Shown here: piece by piece, positions 37,768 to 44,756 of the stretch
Layout: each line of letters starts with the position of its first letter
Numbering within the stretch: position 1 is the stretch's first letter
NCBI RefSeq assembly: GCF_002252635.1
Contig: NZ_NQKX01000008.1
Span: forward strand, 1 to 64,000
Length of the DNA stretch: 64,000 bases
Reading direction: 5' to 3'
Source: Synechococcus sp. MW101C3
GTDB lineage: Bacteria > Cyanobacteriota > Cyanobacteriia > PCC-6307 > Cyanobiaceae
Program-made: the position numbers and the translations under genes
The notes under the pieces: model-generated
What the model was told of the DNA's origin: nothing
Database searches by the model: none
Seen by the model: only the letters and a program-made list of their open reading frames with translations

Positions 37768-37908
37768 ATGGCTCTGTTGCTTCCGGTTCCGCTTGCTCCC
37801 GCAGTGTTCACCTTCCGCGACTGGCTCTGGAGTGGCGGGCTGATCGAGCTGTCCCTGGTGATGGCGGCGTTTCTGGTGGCTGCCTGGTTCGTCAAACGTT
37901 CCCGCTGA
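37768..37908 (+). CDS. Small single-span membrane protein, 46 residues
   Basis: Reads MALLLPVPLAPAVFTFRDWL, then WSGGLIELSLVMAAFLVAAW and FVKRSR. One hydrophobic helix (about residues 24-41) followed by a basic end suggests an inside-positive C-terminus, like small photosynthetic or respiratory subunits. It is below usual gene-calling length. The last 17 bases overlap the 3' end of the HdeD-like gene on the other strand. The family is not recognised. It lies just upstream of, but apart from, the oxidase operon. Confidence 0.6.
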   Translation: MALLLPVPLAPAVFTFRDWLWSGGLIELSLVMAAFLVAAWFVKRSR

Positions 37909-38419
37909 CGGCGCCGGGATCAGGCGCGGTGAGCAGGTTGACGCCGGAGAAGGCCAGCGCCACGCCGAACAGGGTGCCGATCACCCAGAGACTGTCGCTG
38001 GGCCATTCCGCGATCAGCAGACCGCCAAGGATCGCGGTCACCAGACCGTCGGCGATCACCAGGCCCCGGGCCTGGCCATCGGCAGCGGCACCGGCGGCCA
38101 GTTCCATCACCCCTTCGAAGGCCATGAGCAGGCCGACGAACAGGGTGAGGCTCACCTCACTGCTCACCGGAAACACCAGAATCCAGAGGCCACCGCCCAC
38201 ATACAGCAGCCCGCTGAGGCCGCGAAACAGCTTGGTGTTGAGGTCGCCGCCGCCGGTGAGACGCAGCAGCTGGGAGATCCCGCCTGCCACCGCCACCCCG
38301 CCCAGCACGATCGTCAGCAGCGTGGCTGACACGAATGGCAGGGCGATCGACAGGCCGGCAGCAGCGAAGACCAGGGCGGCAGCCAGCCAGCGCAACGGCT
38401 TGGACGCAGGAATCGACAT
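37892..38419 (-). CDS. HdeD-family (DUF308) membrane protein
   Basis: 175 residues from ATG 38419; a TTG at 38443 would add eight. Six hydrophobic segments arranged as repeats: LRWLAAALVFAAAGLSIALP, LLTIVLGGVAVAGGISQLLR, LSGLLYVGGGLWILVFPVSS, LTLFVGLLMAFEGVMELAAG, LVTAILGGLLIAEWPSDSLW and VIGTLFGVALAFSGVNLLTA. HdeD proteins are acid-stress-linked in E. coli; their cyanobacterial role is open. The spacing to the divergent oxidase operon (about 180 bases) makes a shared control region possible. Confidence 0.86.
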   Translation of the reverse strand: MSIPASKPLRWLAAALVFAAAGLSIALPFVSATLLTIVLGGVAVAGGISQLLRLTGGGDLNTKLFRGLSGLLYVGGGLWILVFPVSSEVSLTLFVGLLMAFEGVMELAAGAAADGQARGLVIADGLVTAILGGLLIAEWPSDSLWVIGTLFGVALAFSGVNLLTAPDPGAVSGNV

Positions 38420-38536
38420 CGGGCACGGTCTCGCGAAAGCCAACGCTAAAGGCAGAACCTGGACTGGCCTTCTCCCCCTGGATGACCCGCACGCTCCGAT
38501 GTGTCGGGTTGCACAAACGCACTAGCTTTATTTCTT

Positions 38537-38599: not shown

Positions 38600-39097
38600 A
38601 TGCTCGAGCTGTTGCCCCAGCTCAACGATCGCAACCTTCCCTGGATGGACACGATCCATCCGATCGTCGTCCACTTCGTGATCGCCATGGCCCTGATCGC
38701 GTTCCTGTTCGACGTGATCGGCCGCCTGGCCGGCAAGCCTGAGCTCTATGAGGTGAGCTTCTGGAACCTGCTGTTCGCCACCGCGGCGATCTTCGTGGCG
38801 ATCATCTTCGGCCAGGTGGAAGCGGGCCTGGCCAACCCCTATGGCGAATCGCGCGAGATCCTCAACCTGCACAGCACGATCGGCTGGGCGCTGGCCGGCA
38901 TCCTCTCGGTGCTCACGGCCTGGCGTTACGTGATCCGCAGCAAGGATCCGCGCCGCCTGCCGCTGGCCTTCCTCGGCGCCGGCTCGGTGCTGAGCGTGCT
39001 GGTGGTGGTGCAGGTGCTGCTGGGTAGCGAGCTGGTCTGGATCTACGGCCTTCACACCGTCAAGGTGGTGGAAGCGATGCGCGAGGGATTGGTGTGA
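38600..39097 (+). CDS. DUF2231 membrane protein, first of pair in oxidase operon
   Basis: 165 residues from ATG 38600. Four hydrophobic segments. The start MDTIHPIVVHFVIAMALIAF is the DUF2231 signature, with His20 and His25. His91 (ILNLHSTIGW) and His152 (YGLHTVKVV) also lie at or in membrane segments. Such paired histidines could bind heme b, but this is inference. The next gene starts one base inside its stop (TGATG). DUF2231 genes are known to sit beside cyanobacterial alternative oxidase genes. No enzymatic motif is seen. Confidence 0.85.
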   Translation: MLELLPQLNDRNLPWMDTIHPIVVHFVIAMALIAFLFDVIGRLAGKPELYEVSFWNLLFATAAIFVAIIFGQVEAGLANPYGESREILNLHSTIGWALAGILSVLTAWRYVIRSKDPRRLPLAFLGAGSVLSVLVVVQVLLGSELVWIYGLHTVKVVEAMREGLV

Positions 39098-39672
39098 TGG
39101 CCCTCGGTCCGAATGGCCTCCCCTACAGCCTGCCGATTCACCCGAACCTGGTGCATCTCACCATCGGCCTGTTCATCATCGCCATCGCCTTTGATATCGC
39201 CGGGGCCCTGTTCCCGCTGGAGCGGCGTGTGTTCCGCTTTCTGGCGCTGCCGGTGACCCGCTCCGCCCTGCACGATGTGGGCTGGTACAACCTGCTGGCC
39301 TGCAGCGTGGTGAGCTTCTTCACCGTCACCGCCGGCTTTTTCGAGATGCAGCTGGCCGTGCCTCTGCCCGGCATCACCAGCAGCTTCGGCCTCAGCAGCA
39401 CCGGCAGCATGCTCTGGCACGGCGCCGGTGGTCTGCTGCTGCTGCTGGTGATCGTGCTGATGACCGTGTGGCGGGGCTTTCAGCGCTATGCCTGGCGCCG
39501 CGAGATGGGGCGGCAGGTGCAGTGGAGCTACCTGGCCCTCGGCATTGTGATGTTCGCCCTGCTGGGGGTGCATGGCACCATCGGCGCCCAGCTGGCTGTC
39601 GAATTCGGCGTGCACGTCACCGCCAACCAGTTGCTGGCCGCCGGCGCCGATCTCCGTGAGGCTCTGCCATGA
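39097..39672 (+). CDS. DUF2231 membrane protein, second of pair
   Basis: 191 residues from ATG 39097, overlapping the previous stop by one base. Four or five hydrophobic segments with the DUF2231 start LPIHPNLVHLTIGLFIIAIA (His15, His20). Other histidines are His60 (LHDVGW), His108 (LWHGAGG), His159 (LGVHGTIGA) and His173. The protein differs clearly from its upstream neighbour, so the pair may form a heterodimer. The last four bases overlap ctaC (ATGA), indicating translational coupling to the oxidase. Confidence 0.85.
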   Translation: MALGPNGLPYSLPIHPNLVHLTIGLFIIAIAFDIAGALFPLERRVFRFLALPVTRSALHDVGWYNLLACSVVSFFTVTAGFFEMQLAVPLPGITSSFGLSSTGSMLWHGAGGLLLLLVIVLMTVWRGFQRYAWRREMGRQVQWSYLALGIVMFALLGVHGTIGAQLAVEFGVHVTANQLLAAGADLREALP

Positions 39673-40598
39673 CCAGCTCACCGCCCGCGCCCGCCTCTGT
39701 CAATCGGGCCGCGGTGGCCGCCGTCAGCGTCTGGGTGGGGCTGCTGGTGCTGCTGTCGCACTGGCTGGGGCAGCAGGCCTACCGCTGGCTGCCAGTGCAG
39801 GCCTCCAGCGCCGCCCCACTGGTCGATGACCTCTTCAGCCTCGAAACCGCGATCGCCTGCTTTGTGTTCGCCGGTGTGGTGTCGGTGATGGCGTACGTGC
39901 TGCTGTTCAACCGGGCCGAGAAATACGACATGGACGATGCCGCTCCGGTGGAGGGCAACACCGTGCTGGAGATCATCTGGACGGCGATTCCCCTGATGCT
40001 GGTCATGGCGATCGCCTGGACGACCATCGGCGTCAACCGTGAGATCGGCGCCATCGGCCCCATGGACCACAGCCACGGCGACACCGCCGAGGCGATGGCC
40101 GGCGCCCCCACCGCCGAGATCCAGGTGATCGCCCGTCAGTGGTCGTGGGAGTTCCGCTACCCGGATGCGGCTGCGTCGAGCACCGAGCTGCACCTGCCGG
40201 TGGGTCGTCGCGTGAGCCTGCAGCTGGAGAGCGCCGATGTGATCCACGGCTTCTACGTGCCCGCCTTCCGCCTCAAGCAGCAGGTGATCCCCGGCCGCTC
40301 GATCGCCTTCTTCATCACCCCCACCCGCGAGGGTCGCTACCGCCTGCGCGATTCCGAATACAGCGGCACCTGGTTCGCCGCCAACCAGGTGGATGTGGTG
40401 GTGCAGAGCGAGGAGGCCTACCAGGACTGGCTCACCCGGGCGGCGGCCCAGCCCCTGCGGCCCGGCATCAGCGATGCCTCCCGGGAATACGCCCAGCAGC
40501 AATCCCGGCTGCGCGCCTCCGGCTATCCCACCGTGCCCCCGGCTCCCCCCCCAATGGTCAACGTGCCCGGCTCGAACACCCTTCCCCACGCAGGTTGA
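39669..40598 (+). CDS. ctaCII: ARTO-type heme-copper oxidase subunit II lacking CuA ligands
   Basis: 309 residues. Two membrane helices: about 13-31 and 60-80 (ACFVFAGVVSVMAYVLLF is part), then LEIIWTAIPLMLVMAIAWTT (100-119). The cupredoxin domain has RQWSWEFRYPD (WxW motif) and ADVIHGFYVPAFR with His193. Where normal subunit II has CxExCxxxHxxM, this protein has D228-S-E-Y-S232-G-T-W-F236-A-A-N239. Four CuA-ligand side chains are therefore missing, so CuA is not expected. This fits cyanobacterial ARTO (CtaCII), thought to oxidise quinol rather than cytochrome c. The C-terminal 60 residues are Pro/Ala-rich. Confidence 0.9.
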   Translation: MTSSPPAPASVNRAAVAAVSVWVGLLVLLSHWLGQQAYRWLPVQASSAAPLVDDLFSLETAIACFVFAGVVSVMAYVLLFNRAEKYDMDDAAPVEGNTVLEIIWTAIPLMLVMAIAWTTIGVNREIGAIGPMDHSHGDTAEAMAGAPTAEIQVIARQWSWEFRYPDAAASSTELHLPVGRRVSLQLESADVIHGFYVPAFRLKQQVIPGRSIAFFITPTREGRYRLRDSEYSGTWFAANQVDVVVQSEEAYQDWLTRAAAQPLRPGISDASREYAQQQSRLRASGYPTVPPAPPPMVNVPGSNTLPHAG

Positions 40599-40603
40599 CC
40601 CCC

Positions 40604-42292
40604 ATGACCCTCACCTCTCTTGATCCCGGCATCCTCAAGGCCGCCCACCCGGTGCCGGGGGCACCGAACAACTGGAAGCGCTTTTTCAGCTTCAACACCG
40701 ATGCCAAGGTGATCGGCATCCAATACATCGTGACCTCGCTGTTCTTCCTGTTGGTGGGAGGGCTGCTGGCGATGATCATGCGTGGCGAGCTGATCACGCC
40801 TGAGGCGGATCTGGTGGATCGCACCGTGTACAACGCGCTCTACACGATGCACGGCACGATCATGCTGTTTCTGTTCATGTTTCCGGTTCTCAACGGCCTC
40901 AACAACCTGTTGATCCCCTGCATGATCGGCGCCCCTGACATGGCCTTTCCGCGCCTCAATGCCGCTGCCTTCTGGCTTGTGCCTGTGTTCGGCGTGATCC
41001 TGATGGCCAGCTTCCTGGTGCCCGGTGGTCCGGCGGCCTCCGGCTGGTGGTCGTATCCACCGGTGAGCCTGCAGAACCCCCTGGGCCATCTGATCAATGG
41101 CGAAGCGCTGTGGATCACGGCGGTGGCCCTTTCCGGCGTGTCGTCGATCATGGGAGCGGTGAACTTCGTGACCACGATCCTGCGCATGCGCGCTCCCGGC
41201 ATGACGTTCTTCCGGATGCCGATCTTCTGCTGGACCGCCCTCTCCGCCCAGACGATTCAGCTGATCGGCCTGCCCGCTCTCACCGGCGGCGCTGTGATGC
41301 TGCTGTTCGATCTGGTGGTGGGCACGTCCTTCTATCGCCCGGAAGGGGGCGGCGACCCTGTGCTCTATCAGCACTTCTTCTGGTTCTATTCCCACCCGGC
41401 GGTGTATGTGATCATCCTGCCGGTGTTCGGCATCTTCTCCGAACTGTTTCCCGTGCACGCCCGCAAGCCCCTGTTCGGCTACGTGTTCGTGGCGATGGCT
41501 TCGCTGGTGATCGTGGGCCTCAGCCTGGTGGTGTGGGTGCACCACATGTTCCCCAGCGGGGTGCCCCAGTGGATGCGGGATCTGTTCATGGTGTCCACGA
41601 TGCTGATCGCGGTACCCACCGGCATCAAGGTGTTCGCCTGGCTGGGCACCCTGTGGGGGGGCAAGATCCAGCTGAACACACCGATGCTGTTTTCCCTCGG
41701 TGGCCTGTTCAACTTCGTGTTCGCCGGTGTGACCGGCATCATGCTGGCCACGGTGCCGGTGGACATCCACGTCAACAACACCTACTTCGTGGTGGGCCAT
41801 TTTCACTACGTGATCTACGGCGCTGCCACCATGGGGGTGTATGCGGCGATCTATCACTGGTTCCCTAAATTCACTGGCCATATGTATTTCGAAGGGCTGG
41901 GCAAGCTCCATTTTTTGCTCACCTTTGTAGGCACTAATCTCAACTTCTTCCCGATGCATCCGCTCGGGTTGATGGGCATGCCTCGGCGCGTGTCGTCGTA
42001 CGACCCGGAATTCGCCTTCTGGAACGTGATCGCCAGCCTCGGCGGCTTTCTGCTGGGGGTGTCGATCATTCCCTTCCTGCTCAACCTGGTGAGCTCCTGG
42101 GTGTGGGGGCCCAAGGCGCCGGCCAATCCCTGGAAAGCCATCGGCCTGGAGTGGCTGCTCCCCTCCCCTCCTCCGGCCGAGAACTTTGAAGACAACGTTC
42201 CCACCGTGATCAGCGGCCCCTACGGCTACGGCACGGGCAAACCCCTGGTGGAGCACCAGGAGGCCTATGAACGCGCCCTGCAGGAGGCCTGA
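40604..42292 (+). CDS. ctaDII: Heme-copper oxidase subunit I, ARTO type
   Basis: 562 residues, 12 membrane helices. Catalytic subunit that reduces O2 to water. His83 (TMHGTIMLFLFMFPV) and His401 bind the low-spin heme, His399 (VGHFHYVIYG) the high-spin heme. CuB ligands are His264 (FYSHPAVYVIILP), His313 and His314 (VWVHHMFPSG); Tyr268 is the cross-linkable Tyr. Helix VI has YSHPAVY instead of GHPEVY: the D-channel Glu is absent, placing it in the A2 group. K-channel residues are kept (STMLIAVPTGIKVFAWLGTL). It follows subunit II by five bases and precedes subunit III by three. Confidence 0.95.
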   Translation: MTLTSLDPGILKAAHPVPGAPNNWKRFFSFNTDAKVIGIQYIVTSLFFLLVGGLLAMIMRGELITPEADLVDRTVYNALYTMHGTIMLFLFMFPVLNGLNNLLIPCMIGAPDMAFPRLNAAAFWLVPVFGVILMASFLVPGGPAASGWWSYPPVSLQNPLGHLINGEALWITAVALSGVSSIMGAVNFVTTILRMRAPGMTFFRMPIFCWTALSAQTIQLIGLPALTGGAVMLLFDLVVGTSFYRPEGGGDPVLYQHFFWFYSHPAVYVIILPVFGIFSELFPVHARKPLFGYVFVAMASLVIVGLSLVVWVHHMFPSGVPQWMRDLFMVSTMLIAVPTGIKVFAWLGTLWGGKIQLNTPMLFSLGGLFNFVFAGVTGIMLATVPVDIHVNNTYFVVGHFHYVIYGAATMGVYAAIYHWFPKFTGHMYFEGLGKLHFLLTFVGTNLNFFPMHPLGLMGMPRRVSSYDPEFAFWNVIASLGGFLLGVSIIPFLLNLVSSWVWGPKAPANPWKAIGLEWLLPSPPPAENFEDNVPTVISGPYGYGTGKPLVEHQEAYERALQEA

Positions 42293-42295
42293 ACC

Positions 42296-42907
42296 ATGAC
42301 CACCCTTCCCTCAGCGGCGCCCACCGGCCCCGGCCCGGCCCATGGCGAAGGCCACGCCAGCCATCCCAGCTACACACTCACCGGCTTCATCATTTTCCTC
42401 TGCTCCGAGAGCGTCATCTTTCTGGCGTTCTTCGCCGCCTATGCGCTGCTGAAATCCACCGCCACCAGCTGGTTGCCGCCGGGGGTGGAGGGGCTGGAGT
42501 GGCGCACCCCGCTGCAGTTCACAGTGGTGCTTGTGTCGAGCAGCGGCACGATCGCCGTGGCTGAGCACTTCCTCGGCCAGAAACGCCTGTGGGCCTTCCG
42601 CGCCTTCCTGCTGCTCACGATGGCGATGGGCTCCGTCTTTCTTTATGGCCAGGCGAGTGAATGGAGCGGCCTTTCGTTCGGCTTCACCAGCGGCACCTTC
42701 GGCGGTCTTTTCTATCTGCTCACCGGCTTTCACGGCCTGCATGTGGCCACCGGCATCCTGCTGATGGGCCTGATGCTGGGGCGCTCGTTCTATCCAGGCA
42801 ACTACGACAACGGTGAACAGGGTGTCATCGCTGTTTCCCTGTTCTGGCACTTCGTGGATGTGATCTGGGTGCTGCTCTTTCTGCTTCTCTACGCCTGGCA
42901 AGCATGA
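42296..42907 (+). CDS. ctaEII: Heme-copper oxidase subunit III, ARTO type
   Basis: 203 residues with five hydrophobic segments, the short five-helix form. LTGFIIFLCSESVIFLAFFA contains the conserved SE motif; LLTGFHGLHVATGILLMGLM and SLFWHFVDVIWVLLFLLLYA (HFVDxVW signature) confirm subunit III. It stabilises subunit I and may channel oxygen. The ATG follows the subunit I stop by three bases, and its last four bases overlap the GMC oxidoreductase start (ATGA). Confidence 0.95.
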   Translation: MTTLPSAAPTGPGPAHGEGHASHPSYTLTGFIIFLCSESVIFLAFFAAYALLKSTATSWLPPGVEGLEWRTPLQFTVVLVSSSGTIAVAEHFLGQKRLWAFRAFLLLTMAMGSVFLYGQASEWSGLSFGFTSGTFGGLFYLLTGFHGLHVATGILLMGLMLGRSFYPGNYDNGEQGVIAVSLFWHFVDVIWVLLFLLLYAWQA

Positions 42908-44418
42908 TCATTGATGACACCCACTACGACGTGATCGTCGTCGGCAGCGGCGCCGGAGGCGCCACCCTGGCCAGCGATCTGGCGGCGAAGGGCCGCTCGG
43001 TGCTGCTGCTGGAGCGGGGCGCCGCCTTGCCCCGAGAAGACCAGAACGTCGCGGATGTGGACCTGTTCCGCAAAGACCGCTACCACCCTGGCGAGCAGTG
43101 GTTCGGCACCGATGGCGATCCCTTCTCCCCCCAGGCGGTGTATGCCCTCGGCGGCAACACCAAGATCTGGGGGGCGGTGCTGGAGCGGATGCGGGAGCAG
43201 GAGTTCGGCCCGTTGCGCTATCAGGAAGCCACCGCACCCTCCTGGGGTCTCCCCTACAACCACTTTGCCCCCTGGTACGACCGGGCTGAAGCCCTCTACC
43301 GCGTGCATGGCCGCCAGGGGGTGGATCCCACCGAGCCCAGCCGTTTCGCCGCCTACGCCCGGTCGCCGCGGCCGCTTGATCCCTTGCTGGAGGAGCTGCG
43401 TGAAGGCCTCCGTCGCCAGTCGTGCCATCCCTACGACCTGCCGCTCAGCTGGTCGGAGGATCCGGCAGACCCAAGCGGCGATGCGGAGCTGTTCGGTGTC
43501 ACCCCGGCGCTTGCAGGCGCCGGCACCTGCCTGCGCACCAACGCCAGGGTTAACCGCCTGCATGTGAATCCCGGCGGCACGGAGGTGCGCGGAGTGGAGG
43601 CGGAGATCGACGGCCAGAACTGGCTCTTTCGTGGTGATCAGGTGGTGCTGGCCGCTGGAGCCGTGAACACGGCGGTGATTCTGCTGCGCTCTGTCTCAGA
43701 TCCCCATCCCGCCGGCCTGGCCAACGGCTCCGGCCAGGTGGGCCGCAACCTGATGCGGCCCCAGCTCACGGCGATCCTGCAGCTGGCGGCCCGGGCCAAC
43801 TCCGGCGCTTACCCCCGCAGCCTCGGCGTCAACGACTACTACTGGGGTGACAAGAACGTGAGCTTCCCGCTCGGCCACATCGAGAGCGGCGGCGGCGTGC
43901 TGCAGGACGCCCTGTTCGCCGAATCCCCGCCGGTGCTTTCGCTGGTGACCCGGCTGCTCCCCAACGCGGCGTTGCGGCAGCTGGCGGCCCGCTCGGTGTG
44001 CTGGTGGGCGATGAGTGCGGTGCTGCCCGATCCGGACAATGCGATCACCCTGCGGCGTGACCGCATCCGCATCCACTACCTGCCCAACAATCTCGAAGCC
44101 CACGACCGGCTCGTCTACCGCTGGATCGACACCCTGCGGCGCACCGAAAAGGACCCTCTCACCCAGGTGGTGCGTCCCTCGCTGGTGCATCCCCGCGGCG
44201 AAGCGCCGCTGGCGGTGATGGGCTACGCCTGCGGCACCTGCCGCATGGGCAGTGATCCGGCCAGCTCCGTGGTGGATCTGGCGGGGCGCAGCCATGAAGT
44301 GGCCAACCTCTGGATCGCCGATGCCAGCGTCTTCCCCAGCTGTCCATCGGTGTCGCCCGGCCTCACGGTGATCGCCAATGCCCTGCGCGTGGCGGATGCC
44401 TTGATGCACGCCTTCTAG
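42904..44418 (+). CDS. GMC-family FAD oxidoreductase coupled to the oxidase operon
   Basis: 504 residues. N-terminal FAD motif DVIVVGSGAGGATLASDLAA, then SVLLLERGAALPRED, and GGNTKIWGAVLERM, the flavin-attachment region. The C-terminal GMC pattern is GYACGTCRMGSDPASSVVDL, with LWIADASVFPSCPSVSPGLT. The catalytic His before GTCRMG appears as Tyr, and the Asn of the usual NPxLT appears as Ser, so the reaction may differ from typical alcohol or sugar oxidation. No signal peptide or membrane span, so it acts in the cytoplasm or at the membrane surface. Its start overlaps ctaEII by four bases. It may feed electrons to the quinone pool or the oxidase; that is inference. Confidence 0.85.
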   Translation: MIIDDTHYDVIVVGSGAGGATLASDLAAKGRSVLLLERGAALPREDQNVADVDLFRKDRYHPGEQWFGTDGDPFSPQAVYALGGNTKIWGAVLERMREQEFGPLRYQEATAPSWGLPYNHFAPWYDRAEALYRVHGRQGVDPTEPSRFAAYARSPRPLDPLLEELREGLRRQSCHPYDLPLSWSEDPADPSGDAELFGVTPALAGAGTCLRTNARVNRLHVNPGGTEVRGVEAEIDGQNWLFRGDQVVLAAGAVNTAVILLRSVSDPHPAGLANGSGQVGRNLMRPQLTAILQLAARANSGAYPRSLGVNDYYWGDKNVSFPLGHIESGGGVLQDALFAESPPVLSLVTRLLPNAALRQLAARSVCWWAMSAVLPDPDNAITLRRDRIRIHYLPNNLEAHDRLVYRWIDTLRRTEKDPLTQVVRPSLVHPRGEAPLAVMGYACGTCRMGSDPASSVVDLAGRSHEVANLWIADASVFPSCPSVSPGLTVIANALRVADALMHAF

Positions 44419-44453
44419 GCTGTGTCAATGGGCTTTTGGATCGGAGCCACCTG

Positions 44454-44756
44454 ATGGCAGGACACAACGGGTCAACGCGCGGCGGCAGCACCATCCTGGC
44501 CAGCGCTATCGCCGGGGCCGTGGTGGGAGCGGCCGGGCTGGCCTGGTGGCTGCTCGACGCCGCTGAGCGCCGCCGGCTGGCCGAGCGCCAGCGCCGTCGC
44601 CTCACCCTGTCGCGCTTTCAGGATGGCCCCAGCGAGGGAGAGGGCTACATCCGTCGCCCGCTGCTCGAAAAGGAGCTGCAGCACAAGGTTCAGGAGCTCA
44701 ACCAGGCCATCGAGGATGTGCGCCGCCAGCTGGAGTGCCTAACCCCGGACAACTGA
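44454..44756 (+). CDS. Membrane-anchored coiled-coil protein of unknown function
   Basis: 100 residues from ATG 44454. An N-terminal membrane segment ([20 protein letters not shown], residues 13-32) leads to a basic region ([19 protein letters not shown]) and a C-terminal coiled coil ([20 protein letters not shown]). It looks like an inner-membrane protein with a cytosolic tail. It lies 35 bases after the GMC gene and may be part of its transcript. No family recognised. Confidence 0.65.

Follow-up and report, generated by a model that had tools for sequence, protein, structure and literature searches.

We analyzed a 64,000-nucleotide stretch of the Synechococcus sp. MW101C3 genome (assembly GCF_002252635.1, contig NZ_NQKX01000008.1, positions 1 to 64,000), hereafter the window, in which six plus-strand genes at 38600-44418 code for two DUF2231 proteins, the three subunits of a terminal oxidase and a protein of the GMC (glucose-methanol-choline) oxidoreductase family. 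The reading that we prefer, with a probability of about one half, is that these genes specify an alternative respiratory terminal oxidase (ARTO) with an eight-helix DUF2231 partner and an accessory protein that holds flavin adenine dinucleotide (FAD) and has lost the catalytic dyad of its family. Sequence comparisons would thus assign to this unit a type-1 ARTO, the proposed plastoquinol:O2 oxidoreductase, together with its dedicated partners. CtaD would bear the heme and CuB sites and receive its electrons from quinol. The four-helix membrane proteins DUF2231-A and DUF2231-B would most likely pair as a heterodimer attached to the oxidase, and their His/Glu cluster would be a likely binding site for a metal or b-type heme, with a function either in electron entry or in the maturation of the oxidase. 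The GMC protein would most likely be a cytoplasmic ARTO accessory acting as an electron relay, redox sensor or assembly partner; such a role is proposed, instead of that of a classical dehydrogenase, because the residue that abstracts the substrate proton in a studied GMC dehydrogenase is lost while the FAD-binding fold is kept.

The six-gene unit and its oxidase

The initial annotation, which was made from the sequence alone, had described six same-strand genes with successive junctions of -1, -4, +5, +3 and -4 bases, and the positions of the open reading frames (ORFs) agree with this exactly, the last junction being a 4-base overlap of the GMC gene start with the end of CtaE. A Pfam search recovered the families along the unit in the order DUF2231, DUF2231, COX2, COX1, COX3 and GMC (gathering scores of 26.4 bits for PF09990 and 23 bits for GMC_oxred_N):

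38600..39097, plus strand: DUF2231-A, 165 amino acids, four transmembrane (TM) helices, ATG start at 38600; PF09990 at 126 bits
39097..39672, plus strand: DUF2231-B, ATG start, with a GTG at 39094 that opens the frame too; PF09990 at 128 bits
39669..40598, plus strand: CtaC, oxidase subunit II without the CuA ligands; COX2 and COX2_TM
40604..42292, plus strand: CtaD, oxidase subunit I; COX1 at 514 bits
42296..42907, plus strand: CtaE, oxidase subunit III; COX3 at 97.7 bits
42904..44418, plus strand: flavoprotein of the GMC fold that lacks the catalytic dyad (Tyr441 and Ser484 in its place); GMC_oxred_C at 68.5 bits and GMC_oxred_N at 26.8 bits

We fetched 80 named loci with DUF2231-A. By this protein, Synechococcus sp. 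ATX 2A4 (98%) is the nearest named relative within the set kept. All 65 loci that extend 1.6 kb past CtaE hold the six genes in this order; hence, the arrangement is not a chance one, and the compact gene unit that had been proposed stands. Among the remaining 15 loci, 14 stop short of this point, three of them after the first part of a GMC gene, and the last (L152), on a contig of a metagenome-assembled genome, breaks inside DUF2231-B from about 7750 and continues with other sequence devoid of CtaC, CtaD, CtaE and GMC, reflecting either a deletion or a misassembly. Elsewhere (L209, G415:C63), a second, broken copy of the operon lies about 10 kb from a whole one and consists of pieces of DUF2231-A, DUF2231-B and CtaD followed by CtaE and most of the GMC gene.

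The oxidase had been called CuA-less, and the subunit II alignment bears this out: CtaC has D-S-E-Y-S-G-T-W-F-A-A-N in place of the C-x-x-x-C-G-x-x-H-x-x-M of CuA subunits, while the control, subunit II of the second oxidase of the source genome (L004), retains the ligands. The CuA site is absent from 31 of 34 rows (the window and 33 fetched sequences; L088, from which no CtaC was extracted, stands outside this count) and kept in three (L089, L090 and L091). CtaD contains the motifs His83, His264-Tyr268, His313-His314, His399 and His401, which we take to be the heme and CuB ligands. In a CtaD tree of 35 rows, from which the cbb3-like L100 was excluded, 29 CuA-less rows form one side of a single branch (support 100/99) as against four CuA rows; this split omits two rows of unassigned CuA state, and the row for the second oxidase of the source genome sits on a long branch with unsure placement. 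The best NCBIfam score of CtaD is to the CtaD_CoxA model (664 bits against a cut-off of 671). The cytochrome bo3 and aa3 quinol oxidases, whose subunit II is also CuA-less, have a similar subunit I, which CtaD matches (TIGR02843 and TIGR02882) at scores far under the curated cut-offs. As judged from these alignments, a CuA-less subunit II coupled to a subunit I with metal-ligand motifs fits a type-1 ARTO. Because CtaC lacks CuA, quinol, as opposed to a soluble cytochrome, is predicted to be the electron donor, by analogy with other CuA-less oxidases.

The source genome (3.03 Mb, 18 contigs, completeness 99.99%) has two subunit I matches, the operon CtaD and one at C1:315179 with 52% identity, and one CydA match. 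Its two DUF2231 matches both lie inside the operon, and a search of it gave no match to Cox11.

The GMC flavoprotein: linkage and loss of the catalytic dyad

The initial annotation had suggested that this GMC subfamily would track the ARTO, and co-occurrence in the family of the source strain supports this. Among 251 family genomes, CtaD (E <= 1e-230) is found in 117 and GMC (E <= 1e-100) in 119, with every one of the 117 CtaD genomes carrying GMC. The two genes are separated by 597-742 bases in 114 of these, by 3.0 and 4.8 kb in two, and lie on separate contigs in one. The two genomes with GMC alone are only 74% and 86% complete, and in one of them CtaE and a fragment of CtaD are found at a contig end. 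The two genes are found together in 98 of the 167 family genomes with a completeness of at least 90%, and five genera (g2, g4, g5, g6 and g123) each contain genomes holding both genes and genomes holding neither. The six genes are retained even in genomes of the size of G401 (1.7 Mb) and G345 (2.0 Mb).

We also examined a class-wide sample of 194 genomes, in which an ARTO-like CtaD (at least 68% identity) defines 87 listed loci in 85 genomes. The initial annotation had let its case depend on homologous operons keeping both kinds of additional gene. For DUF2231 they do: in 82 of the 87 loci DUF2231-A is found no more than 5 kb upstream, and the other five (G003, G109, G151, G159 and G045) stand at contig ends. 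For GMC, the expectation holds only in part: it occurs within 2 kb downstream of CtaD in 71 of the 87, whereas it is missing downstream in all nine loci of the family f32, which are putatively heterocyst formers, and in G038. Among the matches listed for the f32 genomes none exceeds 43% identity (G107 and G136 have only such weaker GMC matches), and in G038, where DUF2231-A and CtaD are present, no GMC match was found at E <= 1e-40. In G142, G133 and G189 the GMC gene is elsewhere in the genome, away from the operon. The remaining GMC-less loci are second ARTO copies in G145 and in G163 (the latter at a contig end), and G028, whose fetched contig shows the start of a GMC gene at its end. In the four f32 and G038 loci that were fetched (L075-L078), all five non-GMC genes occur in order; L075-L077 (DUF2231-A, DUF2231-B, CtaC, CtaD and CtaE) belong to f32. 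Conversely, a GMC of at least 48% identity without such a CtaD is seen in three genomes: in G007 CtaD is split into two frames, while G086 and G059 are 93% and 88% complete. A scan of 146 genomes sampled across the phylum with the GMC profile A1 listed 10 genomes at E <= 1e-150, a threshold that also admits one dyad-bearing paralogue of the source genome, and all 10 are from the same class.

The GMC protein has the superfamily fold, with both the N- and C-domains matched, and the GxGxxG FAD motif is present in all 80 ARTO-clade rows that cover it (two of the 82 rows, L250 and L251, are partial). Its nearest relatives of solved structure are the large subunits of FAD-dependent glucose and fructose dehydrogenases (8hdd, 6a2u and 7w2j; E 4e-47 to 9e-35 with profile A1). 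In the alignment, Tyr441 of the window protein stands opposite His1147 of fructose dehydrogenase, which one deposited structure carries in mutated form, and Ser484 takes the place of the Asn that precedes the last helix. The window protein thus lacks the catalytic His plus His/Asn expected of a canonical GMC dehydrogenase or oxidase. Across the clade, whose members are not all beside their oxidase (e.g. L096, L097, L117, L119 and L120), the catalytic Asn is lost in all 82 sequences, being replaced by Ser, Gly or Pro, and the catalytic His is replaced in 60 (Asn in 37, Tyr in 20, Ser in two and Gly in one). In contrast, all 21 examined paralogues, a fetched subset of a longer list, keep both. 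In a tree of the 103 class sequences (82 clade members and 21 paralogues, both dyad columns included in the trees), a single change suffices (SH-aLRT 100), pointing to one event of Asn loss. The same pattern holds in picocyanobacteria (the window and 64 named loci), with Asn in 0/65, His in 8/65 and the FAD motif in 65/65.

Conservation outside the dyad argues that this clade is under constraint, because a set of 63 sequences has 109 positions conserved in both clade and paralogues and 10 in the clade alone. In this set, Trp49, Lys191, His441 and Asn484 are the sole paralogue-conserved positions kept by less than 20% of the clade, although His441 rises above that mark, to 27%, in the fuller clade of 82. 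The constraint would therefore seem not to act on the Asn, and only partly on the His. These dyad assignments derive from alignments alone, the AlphaFold model of the GMC protein being poor (mean pLDDT 54). In a GMC dehydrogenase, according to a published study (PMC3565318), an Asn to Ala change abolished activity and flavin reduction by substrate, while the His to Ala variant retained about 1/20 of kcat. Given the loss of Asn in 82/82 and of His in 60/82 sequences, the ARTO-linked protein is unlikely to be an ordinary substrate dehydrogenase, which weakens the proposal of the initial annotation that it oxidizes a substrate; ordinary alcohol oxidation by the window protein would be lost or very slow, though this does not amount to proof.

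Dyad-bearing GMC proteins are also found in these genomes. The source genome has a paralogue with 39% identity and both His and Asn (L104, G000:C7:216111-217646). In L084, L085, L086 and L087 such paralogues are found at distances of 1.6 to 8 kb from CuA-less oxidases that are less closely related (58-67% CtaD identity); those of L085 and L086 are 7-8 kb 3' of this second CuA-less oxidase type, in a similar gene group that includes a 708-residue GDE_N_bis protein (family tested in L085).

The DUF2231 pair

Four His and one Glu are invariant in each DUF2231 protein in 35/35 aligned rows: His20, His25, His91, His152 and Glu74 in DUF2231-A (likewise in alignment A2, with 34 rows), and His16, His21, His109, His174 and Glu84 in DUF2231-B, counted from the GTG at 39094. 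A profile-profile comparison of the two using hhalign (99.6% probability, E 6e-25) places the four His in register, identifying them at the profile level as paralogues. The AlphaFold model of DUF2231-A (pLDDT 90) has helices at 19-44, 48-77, 82-115 and 122-148 and a short one at 154-161. In the predicted topology, with the helix order assigned by eye, the four His and the Glu would all lie near one membrane face. This is probably the outer (periplasmic or lumenal) face, because the TM3-TM4 loops are basic and the positive-inside rule is used for membrane sidedness.

The pair is found beyond the ARTO. It also precedes the CuA-bearing oxidases of L089-L091, and it travels with a third oxidase type, adjoining a ccoN-like subunit I in L098 and L100 (ccoN matches below the curated cut-off). 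It is therefore not an ARTO-only electron-input module, and the dedicated GMC-to-ARTO electron input that the initial annotation had envisaged loses ground; these gene neighborhoods agree better with a partner that several heme-copper oxidases have in common. Near the pair and the ccoN-like gene, L098 (3581-8657, G011) has a pyridine nucleotide-disulphide oxidoreductase downstream and L100 (6534-10401, G142) a FixO-like protein. We considered whether DUF2231 is a fragment of COX1, given a COX1 match of DUF2231-A at 21.8 bits (cut-off 34.8) and a COX1 row at E 0.94 in the PDB search with DUF2231-B, and rejected it, as profile comparisons with CtaD reach only 0.2% and 0.3% probability. The DUF2231-A profile found nothing at E <= 10 among PDB sequences.

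Alternative readings and known systems

Several observations count against an ARTO with an eight-helix DUF2231 partner and a dyad-less FAD accessory. ARTO without an adjoining GMC exists, with the gene absent in f32 and G038 and distant in G133, G142 and G189. His441 is retained in 22/82 clade sequences, and hence part of the dyad persists in some lineages, where some activity may remain. A Foldseek search with DUF2231-A gave no match at E <= 0.001, leaving heme or subunit kinship unsupported by fold: its rows include chains of cytochrome b561, cytochrome bd, CcmF/CcmC and COX3, all scoring no better than unrelated bundles, and the VIA-align Z values are at the level common for helix bundles.

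The alternative that survives best, which we nevertheless regard as rather unlikely, is that the two DUF2231 proteins, possibly along with the GMC protein, act in maturation, inserting CuB or heme into the oxidase or stabilizing it. The CuA-less, CuA-bearing and cbb3-like oxidases that the pair accompanies have different electron donors and a common heme-CuB centre. The predicted topology, which puts all invariant His on the same side of the membrane, and the lack of a Cox11 match in the source genome are also compatible with such a function. However, the second oxidase of the source genome has no DUF2231 gene of its own, and in the class sample a CtaD match is found in 192 of 194 genomes as against 97 with DUF2231-A, so other cytochrome oxidases manage without it.

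An improbable alternative is the closed substrate:oxygen chain of the initial annotation, in which the GMC protein oxidizes a substrate and passes electrons via DUF2231 heme or quinone to the ARTO. The tight GMC-ARTO linkage, the His kept in 22 clade members and the kinship with FAD-dependent glucose and fructose dehydrogenases speak for it. Although those enzymes are of the same GMC family, the window protein differs in having Tyr441 and Ser484, and there is no cytochrome c gene beside it in the operon. The best NCBIfam match, MftG (TIGR03970), is a mycofactocin-linked GMC protein that, according to PMC11778925, passes electrons to the respiratory chain and keeps the active-site His. The likeness is of a GMC protein tied to one redox system with a proposed respiratory link; yet the window protein, at 75 bits against a cut-off of 387, is not a member of MftG, and its His is replaced. 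The dyad loss in the clade, the ARTO loci without GMC (9/9 in f32) and the occurrence of the DUF2231 pair next to other oxidases, where no GMC gene adjoins it, further tell against a substrate chain.

Least probable, by a little, is a ferric (or cupric) reductase branch made of the DUF2231 pair and GMC, acting with the ARTO and accounting for the iron-reduction defect of an ARTO mutant: the outward-facing His clusters, as predicted, would suit a metal site and the flavin could be the reductant, but no metal-reductase family is among the Pfam/NCBIfam matches and a short upstream alignment (11 rows) gave no conserved operator. The defect, in both iron reduction and uptake, is that of a Synechocystis ctaD2/ctaE2 mutant, as given in PMC10119275, which also ties ARTO to iron acquisition and low-iron Prochlorococcus and draws the region of Prochlorococcus MIT9201 in its Figure 7C; PMC7982531 likewise names ARTO as a suggested participant. 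An upstream iron box was considered and dropped, because the upstream sequence of the window is common only to its nearest relative in that alignment.

As for its surroundings, the operon has a minus-strand DUF308 ORF (37892-38443) as its 5' neighbor and a small same-strand ORF (44436-44756) to its 3' side, whose score against the ssl2009 thylakoid family falls short of the cut-off. In three loci of the family f23 (L079 4417-7503, L080 3977-5757 and L078 6659-7728), other genes lie between CtaC and CtaD, splitting the operon; one such gene in L079 matches Pilin_GH.

The ARTO oxidase and its five-gene operon form are already known. A review (PMC6616624) describes the Qox operon of Anabaena PCC 7120, alr2729-alr2730-coxB3-coxA3-coxC3, as five genes, calls Qox essential for diazotrophic growth, and states that it is not clear whether ARTO-type enzymes have more than three subunits. 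The Anabaena and window operons share a CuA-less subunit II, two upstream genes and the order II-I-III (PMC6616624), alr2729 and alr2730 being putative DUF2231 proteins; the window differs in its sixth gene, the GMC flavoprotein. The co-occurrence of GMC with ARTO and the dyad loss were not found among the literature matches listed, in a search outside which most subscription journals lay, so that their absence from print is not established; for DUF2231, only a database paper is among these matches, and the single paper listed for the subjects in combination concerns Thaumarchaeota.

Tentatively, it is conceivable that a single rewiring in the cyanobacteria turned a GMC flavoenzyme into an FAD subunit dedicated to a heme-copper quinol oxidase. 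The protein would have lost the substrate-activating Asn, kept the FAD fold, gained conserved residues of its own and become inseparable from the oxidase in picocyanobacteria, and it might act as an electron relay, redox sensor or metal reductase. We know of no flavin-bearing partner of this type in any described heme-copper oxidase. Three candidate ARTO partners can thus be named, DUF2231-A, DUF2231-B and GMC, the last of which is present or absent together with ARTO across the sampled picocyanobacterial genomes, including two streamlined ones. The prediction that the ARTO-linked GMC protein is not an ordinary dehydrogenase bears on the electron donor, the subunits and the role of ARTO.

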